Shown here in pieces: positions 9,281 through 13,516 of a stretch of DNA of 43,207 nucleotides. The position numbers and the translations under genes are program-made. Position 1 is the stretch's first letter; each line of letters starts with the position of its first letter. This DNA is from Candidatus Polarisedimenticolia bacterium (GTDB taxonomy: Bacteria > Acidobacteriota > Polarisedimenticolia > Gp22-AA2). Under the pieces are notes generated by a model. It saw only the letters and a program-made list of their open reading frames with translations, did not search any database and was not told where the DNA came from. The stretch spans positions 1 through 43,207 of the forward strand of contig DASYUH010000020.1 of the NCBI GenBank assembly GCA_036001465.1, read 5' to 3'.

Positions 9281-10672
9281 GTGCCCACCGCACGCGCGCG
9301 TCGCACCATCCTCGTCTTTCTGATCATCCTCACGATCATCGTGGTCGCGCGCGTCGCCTCCTCCGCGGAGGGTGGCTCTCTCGCGCCCGAATGCGGACAG
9401 TCAGGGAGCGGGGACGCGGCTCCGGCGCAGGACCGGACCGGCCTGTTCCACCGCGCCCGGGTGGCCCTCTTCGATCCCTATGGCAAGGCGGCCCCCGCGC
9501 TCCGGGCCCTGGGGATCCAGAGCGAGACCTTCACCGCTTTCGAGGGGCTCGCCCTGTTTCGGGGCGACGTGATCGTCATCGGCCCGGGGGGATTCGCGCG
9601 CGGGCGCGAGGCGCTGGGGCCGATCCTCGCGGCGCGCGCCCGCTCCGGGATGCGCCTGTTGCTTCTGGAGCAGCCCTCACTCCCCGGCACGCTCAGCGAG
9701 GATCTGCGGCTGTGGCCCTCGTTCGCCCGTTCGGCGGACAGCACGGCGGTGTTCGCGGCGCACCATCCGGTCCTGCGCGGCGTCGCGCCCGCGAGCCACG
9801 CCGCCGGCGTCGCCGGCGCTCCGCGGGTCCGGCCCCTCCTGCCGCCGGCCCACGGGAATTTCCGGGTCATCGCCGGGATCCGGACGCGCAGCGGGACATC
9901 CTGGCAGGAGGGAGTGACCCTGCTCGAGGTCCCGATCGGCGAGGGCCTGGTGCTGGCCGCCCAGGAATCGCTCTGCTCCGACTTCGACCTGGACCCCGTG
10001 GCGCGGACGGTCCTTGCCAACACCCTGGCCTATCTCCTGGGAGAGCGACCCGTGCTGAAGAAGACGTTCATGTACGGCGGCTCTCCGGACGACCTCCCGG
10101 CCTGCCTTGCGCCCCTGGCTCCGGCCGCTGCCAGGGCCCCCCGCGACCTCGAGGGGGTCGAGGCGCTGCTCGTTCCGGGCGATTGGCGCGCCCCGCGCCT
10201 GTCCGGGACGCCGGGCCTGCCGCCGCTCGCCGAGATGGCCCGCTTCCTGCGCCAGGGAGGGACCGTCGTGCTCCTCAATCCCCAGCCGATGTCGGGGAAT
10301 TACCTGCGAGCCGTCACCGGCTTTCCGGTCTATTTCGAGTCATCCACCCCGTTCCGCCCGCATCTGGATCCGGACGCGGCCCTGTTCGAAGGGATCAGCT
10401 TCGACGACATCGACCCCCTGTGGCGCGATGGACGCCCGGAGTTCCGGCTGCGGAGCGCGGGCGACGCCGTGACGCCGGTGGTCATCGCCCCCGGCATCGC
10501 CCAGTACAGGGTCGGGCTGGGCACGCTCGTGGCGCTGACCCTTCCCGACGCCTCCGACTGTGCCGCGCCGCGCACGTCGAGTCTTCTGGCCCGGCTCCTC
10601 ACCAACCTGGGCGTCCCGCTCGACCACCGCCCCGGCATCGATCCCGAGGCCATCTCGCTCCTCGACGAGTAG
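9281..10672 (+). CDS. Membrane-anchored or secreted protein of unknown function
   Basis: This is a 463-residue protein with a basic N-terminus and one strong hydrophobic segment (ILVFLIILTIIVVARVA, about residues 10-26) that acts as signal peptide or anchor. The rest is periplasmic or extracellular. Two similar halves each carry alternating strand-helix stretches ending in a hydrophobic strand (GDVIVIGPGGFARGREAL, MRLLLLEQPSLPG; then VEALLVPGDWRAP, GTVVLLNPQP). This layout is like class-I glutamine-amidotransferase-type domains found at the ends of bacterial beta-galactosidases and DUF4350-type proteins, but I see no catalytic triad, so the link is weak. The GTG start has GGGAGGG six nucleotides upstream. 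A TATATT at 9222-9227 could be its -10. Downstream lies the MITE-like element. Confidence 0.75.
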   Translation: MPTARARRTILVFLIILTIIVVARVASSAEGGSLAPECGQSGSGDAAPAQDRTGLFHRARVALFDPYGKAAPALRALGIQSETFTAFEGLALFRGDVIVIGPGGFARGREALGPILAARARSGMRLLLLEQPSLPGTLSEDLRLWPSFARSADSTAVFAAHHPVLRGVAPASHAAGVAGAPRVRPLLPPAHGNFRVIAGIRTRSGTSWQEGVTLLEVPIGEGLVLAAQESLCSDFDLDPVARTVLANTLAYLLGERPVLKKTFMYGGSPDDLPACLAPLAPAAARAPRDLEGVEALLVPGDWRAPRLSGTPGLPPLAEMARFLRQGGTVVLLNPQPMSGNYLRAVTGFPVYFESSTPFRPHLDPDAALFEGISFDDIDPLWRDGRPEFRLRSAGDAVTPVVIAPGIAQYRVGLGTLVALTLPDASDCAAPRTSSLLARLLTNLGVPLDHRPGIDPEAISLLDE

Positions 10673-10688
10673 AGGCCGGCGGAACCCC

Positions 10689-10699
10689 GTATAATCCGC
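10689..10699 (+). repeat. Left 11-bp direct repeat (possible target-site duplication)
   Basis: GTATAATCCGC directly abuts the outer end of the left inverted repeat. The same 11 bases occur at 10915-10925, directly outside the right inverted repeat. Confidence 0.7.
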
Positions 10700-10914
10700 A
10701 TAGTGGCGCTCAGAGTGTGGAAACGACCATCACCAGCTCGACGGCTGCCCGGGCCATGTCATCCAGTTATCAAGCTTCAAGCCAGCCCCCACCTCAAGCT
10801 GCAGCCGGGTTTGGCAGGCGACATCCCCTCGCACCGCGTTCGCGGATGAACACTTGACCGCGACCAGCTCCTGCCCGTGAACGGGTCTCTTCTCCACACT
10901 CTCGGCGCCACTAT
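10700..10914. mobile_element. 215-bp MITE-like element with 22-bp terminal inverted repeats
   Basis: The ends are imperfect inverted repeats of 22 bp matching at 20 positions. The left arm (10700-10721) reads ATAGTGGCGC, two or three variable bases, then GAGTGTGGA; the right arm (10893-10914) is its complement. Outside both arms lies the identical 11-bp sequence GTATAATCCGC. The interior codes for no recognisable transposase, so the element would be non-autonomous. Its right end sits immediately before the TATAAT that should drive the TolB-PHP gene, so the duplicated target contains a -10 box. A caution is that the right flank continues with GCCCTCGGAGTGTG, which partly resembles the inner part of the arm. 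A local duplication history is therefore an alternative to transposition. Confidence 0.6.
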
Positions 10915-10925
10915 GTATAATCCGC
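10915..10925 (+). repeat. Right 11-bp direct repeat containing a -10 box
   Basis: This is the second copy of GTATAATCCGC. TATAAT at 10916-10921, preceded by TG (TATGTATAAT), makes an extended -10 for the gene starting at 10955. The predicted leader is about 27 nt. Confidence 0.6.
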
Positions 10926-10954
10926 GCCCTCGGAGTGTGTTCGAGGACGCGCCC

Positions 10955-13516
10955 ATGAGATGCACCGCAAAGAGTTTCGGATGGTTGGCCGCCGCGATCC
11001 TGTTCACGGTGATCGGGACCCCGATCGCCGCCAGACAGAGCTCGGAGGTCCGCGAAATCGTCCTGAAGCAGATCCAGCTGCCGCATCATTACTACTATCG
11101 CGAGATGTACCTGCCGCAGGCGACGACCGGACCCGGCTCGGTCGCCTGGTCCCCCGACGGCGCCGAGCTCGTCTACTCGATGCAGGGGTCCCTCTGGCGG
11201 CAGCGCCTGGGCACGAAGGAGGCCCGCCAGGTCACCTCGGGCCCCGGCTACGATTACCAGCCGGACTGGTCCCCCGACGGGCGGTTCATCGCCTTTGCCT
11301 CGTACCGGGACGACGCCGTCGAGCTCTGGCTCCTCGACACCAGGACCGGCCAGACGCGACCGATCACCCGGAACGGAGCGGTCAACGTCGAGCCGCGCTT
11401 CTCCCCCGACGGCCGGCGCATCGCCTTTGTCTCCACCGTCTTCAACAGGAGATTCCACGTCCACACCGTCACCCTGGACGATCAGGGGGAGCCCGGTGCG
11501 TTCGAGCGGCTGACGGAGGACCACGAGAGCGGGCTGCCGCGCTATTACTACCATCCGTTCGACCATTACATTTCTCCGTCGTGGTCGCCCGACGGCAAGG
11601 AGATCGTCCTCGTCTCCAACCGCGGCCACATCTGGGGGACCGGAGGCCTGTTCAGGATCAAGGCCAGTCCCGGGTCGGAGCTGCGCCCGATCCACGACGA
11701 GGAGACCACCTGGAAGGCCAGGCCCGACTGGTCGCCCGACGGCCGTCGAATCGTCTACAGCTCGTACCTGGGAGGCCAGTGGAACCAGCTCTGGCTCATG
11801 ACCGACGAGGGGGGGGACGTGCTGCCACTCACCTACGGCGATTTCGACGCCACCTCGCCGCGCTGGTCGCGGGACGGGCGGCGCATCGCGTTCATCTCGA
11901 ACCAGGACGGCAACACCTCTCTGTGGACCATCGAGATTCCCGGCGGCCGGCGCGAGCGCGTGGAGCCGCGCGACCGGCGCTACCTGGGCCCGGTCGGCCG
12001 CGTGAAGCTCGCCATCCTCGACGCCCGGACCGGCCGGCCCGTCCCGGCCAGGGTGTCGGTGACCGGGCCGGACGGACGGGCCTTCGCTCCCGACGACGCC
12101 TGGCGGCATGCCGATGAGGCGTTCGACCGGTCGCGGAGCAGGTACGAGTACAGCTATTTCCACACGAACGGGAGCTCGGAGGTGGTGGTCCCGGCCGGCC
12201 CGGTGACGATCGAGATCATCAGGGGTCTGGAGCACCGTCCGGTCGTGAAGCAGGTGACGGTCCCCGCCGGCGGCACCGTGCCGGTGCGCGCCACGCTCCA
12301 GAGGATCGCCGACATGCCGTCCCGGGGTTTCTACAGCGGCGACCTGCACGTCCACATGAACTACGGCGGCACCTATCGAAACACCCCCAAGGGGCTGGCG
12401 TTCCAGGGGCGGGCCGAAGATCTGGCGGTGATTGAAAACCTCGTGGTCAACAAGGAGCAGCGCATCCCGGACATCGCCTACTTCCCCGCCCGGCCCGCCC
12501 CTCCGTGGAACGAGGGGACGCTGGTGGTCCACGGGCAGGAATACCACACCAGCTTCTGGGGCCACACGGCGATCCTCGGGCCGCGCGACTACTTCCTGAT
12601 GCCGGCGTACGCCGCCTACGCGAACACGCCCGCCGGAAGCCCCTACCCGAACAATCCCGCCGTCTTCGACCTGGCGCACGGGCAGGGCGCCCTGACCGGC
12701 TACGTTCACCCGTTCGACGCCCCTCCCGATCCCGCCAGGATGGAGGAGCCGCTCACGCACGACCTTCCTGTCGCCGCGGCGCTCGGCAAGGTCGACTACT
12801 TCGAGGTGGTCGGCTTCAGCGACCACCTCGCCACGTCGACGGTCTGGTACCGCCTGCTCAACTGCGGCCTGCGGCTCCCGGCCGGCGCCGGCACCGATGC
12901 GATGGCGAACTACGCCTCGCTGCGCGGCCCGGTGGGCGTGGATCGGGTCTACGTGAAGACCGGGGGACGGCCCGATCACGCGGCGTGGCTCCGCGGCATC
13001 CGGAGCGGCAGGACGTTCGCGACCAACGGGCCGCTCCTGGAGTTTTCCCTCGGCGGCAAGGGACCGGGGGACGATCTGCAATTGCCGGACGGAGCGCACA
13101 GCGTCCAGGCGCGCGTCTCCCTCCGGTCGATCGTCCCGGTCGACCGGCTGGAGATCGTCGGGAACGGGCGCGTGGTGGCCGATCTGCCGCTTACGGGAGA
13201 CCGGACGTCCGCCGCGGCGACCCATGATCTCTCCGTCACGGCCAGCGGCTGGTACGTGCTGCGCGCCTACGCGGCGCACCCGGAGCACCCGATCCTGGAC
13301 ATCTATCCGTTCGGGACGACGAGCCCCGTCTACGTGAGGGTGGGACACGGCAAGGTCCGGTCGCCCGACGACGCAGGCTATTTCCTCGCCTGGATCGATC
13401 GTCTGGAGAAGGCGGCCCGCGAGCACCGGGGCTGGAACACCGAGGCGGAGAAAGCCTCCGTCCTGGGCGACTTCGCCAGGGCGCGGGAGTTCTACCTGGC
13501 GCAGATCACTCCGTGA
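10955..13516 (+). CDS. Secreted TolB-type propeller fused to a CehA/McbA-like PHP metallohydrolase
   Basis: The product is 853 residues with a signal peptide (SFGWLAAAILFTVIGTPIAA, cleaved near residue 27). Residues from about 60 to 330 hold six PD40/WD40-like strands of the form WSPDG (QPDWSPDGRFIAFAS, EPRFSPDGRRIAFVS, SPSWSPDGKEIVLVS and others), which build a TolB-like propeller. A carboxypeptidase-regulatory-like beta domain follows (LAILDARTGRPVPARV). The C-terminal half is a PHP-type metallohydrolase: YSGDLHVHMNYGG, VVHGQEYHT, GYVHPFDAP and FSDHLATSTVW carry the metal-binding His and Asp residues, and PAGAGTDAMANY follows. CehA/McbA relatives hydrolyse ester or carbamate-type bonds; the substrate here is unknown. 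The in-frame ATG at 10877 lies inside the inserted element, so the start after the TATAAT was chosen. It overlaps the convergent acvB by 11 bp. Confidence 0.88.
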   Translation: MRCTAKSFGWLAAAILFTVIGTPIAARQSSEVREIVLKQIQLPHHYYYREMYLPQATTGPGSVAWSPDGAELVYSMQGSLWRQRLGTKEARQVTSGPGYDYQPDWSPDGRFIAFASYRDDAVELWLLDTRTGQTRPITRNGAVNVEPRFSPDGRRIAFVSTVFNRRFHVHTVTLDDQGEPGAFERLTEDHESGLPRYYYHPFDHYISPSWSPDGKEIVLVSNRGHIWGTGGLFRIKASPGSELRPIHDEETTWKARPDWSPDGRRIVYSSYLGGQWNQLWLMTDEGGDVLPLTYGDFDATSPRWSRDGRRIAFISNQDGNTSLWTIEIPGGRRERVEPRDRRYLGPVGRVKLAILDARTGRPVPARVSVTGPDGRAFAPDDAWRHADEAFDRSRSRYEYSYFHTNGSSEVVVPAGPVTIEIIRGLEHRPVVKQVTVPAGGTVPVRATLQRIADMPSRGFYSGDLHVHMNYGGTYRNTPKGLAFQGRAEDLAVIENLVVNKEQRIPDIAYFPARPAPPWNEGTLVVHGQEYHTSFWGHTAILGPRDYFLMPAYAAYANTPAGSPYPNNPAVFDLAHGQGALTGYVHPFDAPPDPARMEEPLTHDLPVAAALGKVDYFEVVGFSDHLATSTVWYRLLNCGLRLPAGAGTDAMANYASLRGPVGVDRVYVKTGGRPDHAAWLRGIRSGRTFATNGPLLEFSLGGKGPGDDLQLPDGAHSVQARVSLRSIVPVDRLEIVGNGRVVADLPLTGDRTSAAATHDLSVTASGWYVLRAYAAHPEHPILDIYPFGTTSPVYVRVGHGKVRSPDDAGYFLAWIDRLEKAAREHRGWNTEAEKASVLGDFARAREFYLAQITP

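Follow-up and report, generated by a model that had tools for sequence, protein, structure and literature searches.

In the window (the whole stretch of 43,207 nucleotides that was analysed), a short element bounded by inverted repeats (TIRs) and flanked on each side by the same target duplication (TSD) lies between two genes read in the same direction. The coordinates are listed in Table 1. An earlier note on this DNA named the downstream gene TolB-PHP. Its TolB-like propeller part is recognised by Pfam, while the PHP-like part is that reader's own reading, without Pfam confirmation. Going by named orthologues of this gene, the host is close to 'Acidobacteria gp22' MAGs. The reading frame of the enzyme is open back into the element (10877-10957 of the window), where a GTG at 10877 and an ATG at the end of the TIR (10913) are in frame; gene callers may place the start of this gene too far upstream.

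Table 1. Features at the insertion site (window coordinates) and further copies of the element in the host genome (contig coordinates)
Feature	Position	Strand	Length	Remarks
Upstream gene	9281..10672	+	463 aa	No Pfam match; conserved beside the target in empty-site relatives
Left TSD, TATAATCCG	10690..10698	+	9 bp	-10-like box, reads into the element; single in L092/L094/L118
MITE	10699..10915	+	217 bp	No ORF of its own; TIRs; equal-length sister copies on C32 and C109
Left TIR, CATAGTGGCGCTCAGAGTGTGGA	10699..10721	+		Common to the 3' end of the presumed parent IS
Equivalent of the untranslated 5' leader of the presumed parent IS, up to the transposase start codon	10768..10915	-		Local alignment and ungapped colinearity
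Right TIR, reverse complement CATAGTGGCGCCGAGAGTGTGGA	10893..10915	-		Common to the 5' end of the presumed parent IS
Right TSD, TATAATCCG	10916..10924	+	9 bp	-10-like box adjoining the gene; single in L092/L094/L118
Downstream gene, TolB-like beta-propeller (PD40) / PHP-like enzyme	10955..13516	+	853 aa	PD40 by Pfam
Copy	C32:71873-72089		217 bp	93% identical
Copy	C109:75170-75386		217 bp	75% identical
Copy	C10:4190-4418		229 bp	TSD 9/9
Copy	C75:13655-13884		230 bp	TSD 8/9
Copy	C44		98 bp	

The element is non-autonomous and has the ends CATAGTGGCGC...GCGCCACTATG. Its inverted arms (10699-10726 and 10888-10915) are 28 nt long and 86% complementary, the TIRs agree at 21/23 positions, and the direct repeat GTATAATCCGC is present at 10689-10699 and 10915-10925. 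The number of 22-bp arm pairs of such quality that would arise in the window by chance with a perfect 9-bp repeat at their flanks is about 6e-7. The inverted and direct repeats are thus present as the earlier note described them, and, as it also stated, there is no transposase ORF inside. The lengths it gave, 215 bp for the element and 11 bp for the duplication, are corrected here to 217 bp and 9 bp; the terminal C and G had been miscounted as target. All copies in the host genome have C and G outside the 'ATAGTGG...CCACTAT' of the first reading regardless of what flanks them, so the unit is 217 bp (10699-10915). For example, the C10 copy lies between two perfect copies of GACGGGATC, beyond which the bases differ, and the C75 copy is flanked by TCCAGCGCT and TTCAGCGCT (8/9). 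Related full-length ISs with C-initial TIRs also have TSDs of this length (9/9 bp in L060, CACGCGCTC, and in L066, GAATCAGTC; 8/9 in L069). The outer G (10689) and C (10925) at the window site equal the last G and first C of the element by coincidence. The duplication, which had been considered longer than in most families, is of ordinary length. Note that the empty site by itself is compatible with both 9 + 217 and 11 + 215 (both 226), and it is the sister copies that discriminate between them.

Empty sites with a single repeat before the orthologous gene, which the earlier note proposed to look for, are found in two relatives. At L094 in G002, a genome of the same genus, and at L092 in G007, of the same family, the same upstream and TolB-like genes flank a single CCCGTATAATCCGCGCCCTC. 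An Acidobacteria MAG (L118), whose locus is apparently the equivalent of L092, also has a single TATAATCCG, and in G006 (L091) the box reads TATAATCCCCTC. Because the box is single in relatives without the element, it is older than the insertion and conserved, in agreement with the idea that the insertion copied a -10 box. Among close relatives the TolB-like gene has two neighbourhoods: it follows either a GAPDH-like gene (L088-L090, L093; identity read by eye) or the 463-aa gene (L091, L092, L094).

Copies were searched for in the host genome (4.58 Mb, 114 contigs). The family consists of five copies of 217-230 bp and one of 98 bp, including the window copy on contig C20, and the arm pattern of the earlier note has sister copies at unrelated loci. 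The TIR pattern read backwards matches nothing in the genome search, so the matches are specific. Recognisable TSDs were looked for at the C109, C40, and C44 copies and none was found (decay or rearrangement). Neither a lack of other copies nor conservation of the structure at orthologous loci, which the earlier note had named as grounds against its reading, is therefore found.

The search for a full-length element with the same ends, which had also been suggested, leads to an IS of 1375 bp on C40 (C40:17577-18951) with one 386-aa ORF. Six contig ends (C38, C44, C71, C72, C75, and C94) lie within further full-length copies. Some of these are near-identical (C75 and C71, for example, at 218/219 bases), which suggests recent activity and explains why the contigs break there. 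Beyond the TIR, the right part of the short element aligns locally to the 5' end of the IS with scores of 36.5-50.5 (shuffle maximum, 27). A further 70 bp are colinear without gaps, with an identity of 0.495 at offset 0 compared with 0.26 +/- 0.044 at other offsets, and the homology goes no further than the start codon of the transposase. The left part has only the TIR and a few bases in common with the 3' end of the IS. The element is short, non-coding, and bounded by TIRs, has a TSD and empty sites, and is accompanied by dispersed copies and a resident autonomous element. What had been called MITE-like is thus borne out by the sister copies, by the full-length IS that shares its ends, and by orthologous loci that are empty and have one TATAATCCG. 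It is very probable that the element is a type I MITE, that is, the resident 1375-bp IS with an internal (coding) deletion, and that this IS is its parent.

The host has a second IS of the same group (L052, G000:C2:17023-18443), which is 50% identical and has the TIR CATGGTGGTGCGGAGG, and a 133-bp MITE with ends of the general L052 type (G000:C32:26016-26148). L058 (G000:C66:26855-27853) and L078 form a more distant subgroup, 32% identical, whose ends are different (AAAATGCCC...) and whose transposase has N in place of the third acidic residue. Paired-end elements of 99-290 bp with the same TIR type (L205-L213, L222) exist in G001, G003, G004, G005, G006, G009, and the host, and clear 9-bp TSDs are mostly absent from them. 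Therefore, this IS group gives rise to MITEs habitually.

The transposase has a zinc-ribbon-like (zinc finger) N-terminus, an HTH, and an RNase-H-like core, in the same order as in the IS1 family. The core is found in the predicted structure (pLDDT 87, pTM 0.87), with acidic residues on strand 1, strand 4, and the helix that comes next, and the model is similar to retroviral integrase cores (Z 12.7) and to ISCth4 (Z 12.4). As modelled, this is a DDE-type transposase with the RNase H fold. D142 and D228 are invariant in the family alignment. Candidates for the third acidic residue are D275, which most members have at this place in the alignment (three have N), and E291, which is conserved nearby (17/19). 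Sequence searches against Pfam, NCBIfam, and PDB give no family assignment: the NCBIfam models for IS1 (NF033558) and ISL3 (NF033550) score 28.9-30.1 bits (cut-off, 100) and 26.7 bits (cut-off, 180), respectively. Annotation pipelines are likely to miss the group because it falls below the Pfam/NCBIfam cut-offs. In profile comparison, nearly the whole length matches IS1-like proteins of 337-361 aa from Deinococcus/Meiothermus (E 8e-13, 2e-14), which are themselves below the IS1 cut-off (63 vs 100 bits). Relatives of the transposase exist in 29/199 related genomes, nearly all of the same class of Acidobacteriota; elsewhere in a wider scan of the phylum the matches are weak and mostly partial. 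A scan of named genomes with the transposase found no relative, and the literature searched on Acidobacteria yielded nothing specific to this IS group. A phage or plasmid origin was considered and rejected; there is no meaningful DNA match, and only two distant IS1-like proteins are on Deinococcus/Meiothermus plasmids. We conclude that the parent belongs to a group distantly related to IS1 and outside the modelled families, as judged against Pfam and NCBIfam.

The right junction of the element carries a sigma-70-like site (10893..10921, +) composed of TCCACA in the right TIR, a 17-bp spacer, and TATAAT in the right TSD (10/12 matches). It is the only such site in 10500-11100, where 0.1 is expected in shuffles. 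The -35-like TCCACA matches at 4/6 positions and lies within a motif that is conserved anyway, probably because the transposase binds there. A clear -35 is lacking from the native promoter, which may not need one. From the sequence, a leader of about 27 nt with GAGG ahead of the ATG at 10955 is predicted. A hybrid promoter, with its -35 from the TIR and its -10 from the right TSD, has about an even chance of being what these motifs represent, and it is plausible that the right -10 copy still drives the gene, as was first proposed. The insertion could instead weaken or inactivate the promoter so that the gene is silent or is read from elsewhere. The original upstream sequence would now be 226 bp further off, and a long inverted repeat could impede read-through. 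However, the ORF and the -10 box are intact, as is the distance from this box to the ribosome-binding region, and a -35-like hexamer sits at 17 bp; loss of the promoter is rather unlikely. Owing to its inverted repeats the element folds well as an RNA strand (z -4.0), and it lies directly upstream of a gene, as would a conserved, immobile hairpin that regulates the enzyme gene, or a structured leader in its RNA. That reading has a negligible probability: it is refuted by orthologous loci, which have a single TATAATCCG and no hairpin, and copies of the element are at unrelated loci. An Rfam search of the element gave no match.

Another insertion of this kind is found on C32, where a 45-aa zinc-ribbon-like ORF begins about 30 bp downstream of the copy. 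Its TSD reads TATACTCTC on the right and TTTACTTTC on the left (7/9). Three element-free congeners (L195, L196, and L197) have TATACT at the orthologous place with the same two flanking genes. The TSDs of the C20 and C32 copies start exactly at TATAAT and TATACT, and the C32 copy repeats the geometry of the window copy (TCCACA, 17 bp, -10). Thus, two of the three 217-bp copies sit on conserved -10-like boxes, in the same orientation and register. The transposase or the MITE could then prefer -10 boxes, and promoter insertions would be directed. Given how often such hexamers occur in about 62 kb of the host genome, finding two of 12 junction pairs on them has p ~1e-5, a value with serious caveats, as the first case was picked for its TATAAT and the C20 and C32 copies are close sisters. 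The targets of other copies are GC-rich or unrelated (e.g., GACGGGATC and TTCAGCGCT), and such junctions are absent from all 10 paired elements of the relatives. The same pattern arises by selection if only insertions leaving a -10 box beside the gene survive, which accounts for it as well as targeting does. A preference for -10 boxes is therefore unlikely, and it is not adopted as a general rule given the 0/10 in relatives.

For the window copy, the following course of events is proposed. The 1375-bp IS would have lost its coding region while keeping the ~148-bp 5' leader and the 3' terminal repeat. The transposase of the parent would then work in trans on these ends (CATAGTGGCGC...GTGTGGA) and cut the target with a 9-bp stagger at TATAATCCG, where the gene at 10955 has its conserved -10 box, so that the box was duplicated. 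The right box remains about 33 bp ahead of the start codon and the left box now faces the element; the gene would be transcribed from the right box with the TIR providing the -35-like TCCACA 17 bp upstream. More broadly, the parent may represent an undescribed IS1-related group (~1.35-1.5 kb, a single transposase of 380-400 aa, CANNGTGGYGC ends, 9-bp TSD, and possibly a DDD triad), largely confined to one acidobacterial class. Between the cut site and a -35-like hexamer in the TIR of this group there would be exactly 17 bp, and its MITEs would thus rewire genes when they land on a -10 box. This picture is offered tentatively, as a possibility that falls somewhat short of probable.

The MITE is ordinary in kind; what adds interest is that its parent belongs to an uncatalogued IS group and that two insertions are on -10 boxes. 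With MITE, parent IS, sister copies, 9-bp TSDs, and empty sites together, it is an unusually complete case from a little-studied phylum. The filled and empty sites are a natural promoter pair for the question of how a MITE can enter a promoter without destroying it.

Several known systems are comparable. MITEAba12 of Acinetobacter is also short, has the TIRs of a resident IS (ISAba12) and a 9-bp TSD, carries outward sigma-70-like promoters, and is thought to be mobilised by a transposase acting in trans (PMC6382973). It differs in being AT-rich and 113 bp long with the TIR GGCTTTGTTGCA, and it is homologous to its IS at the TIRs alone; the present element matches its parent throughout the 5' leader as well. 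The Correia elements found in Neisseria are likewise MITEs upstream of genes that supply promoters (PMC10969869, PMC9330008), and what they duplicate at the target looks like a portion of a -10 box, as here. Unlike the present element they duplicate TA or 3-5 bp rather than 9 bp, and their ends and transposase have no demonstrated relation to those described here. MITE-borne promoters are known from both Correia elements (PMC10969869) and MITEAba12 (PMC6382973), and other elements are known to form fusion promoters, in which an IS contributes the -35 and its target the -10 (PMC9330008). In the present case the -10 box is within the target duplication itself, and the promoter is a prediction from the sequence. 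As for the parent IS, its N-terminal zinc finger, HTH, and first catalytic D align with those of the IS1 family (NF033558). It is distinguished from IS1 by CATAGTGG ends, a single 386-aa ORF, and, according to the alignment, D275 where IS1 apparently has the catalytic E.
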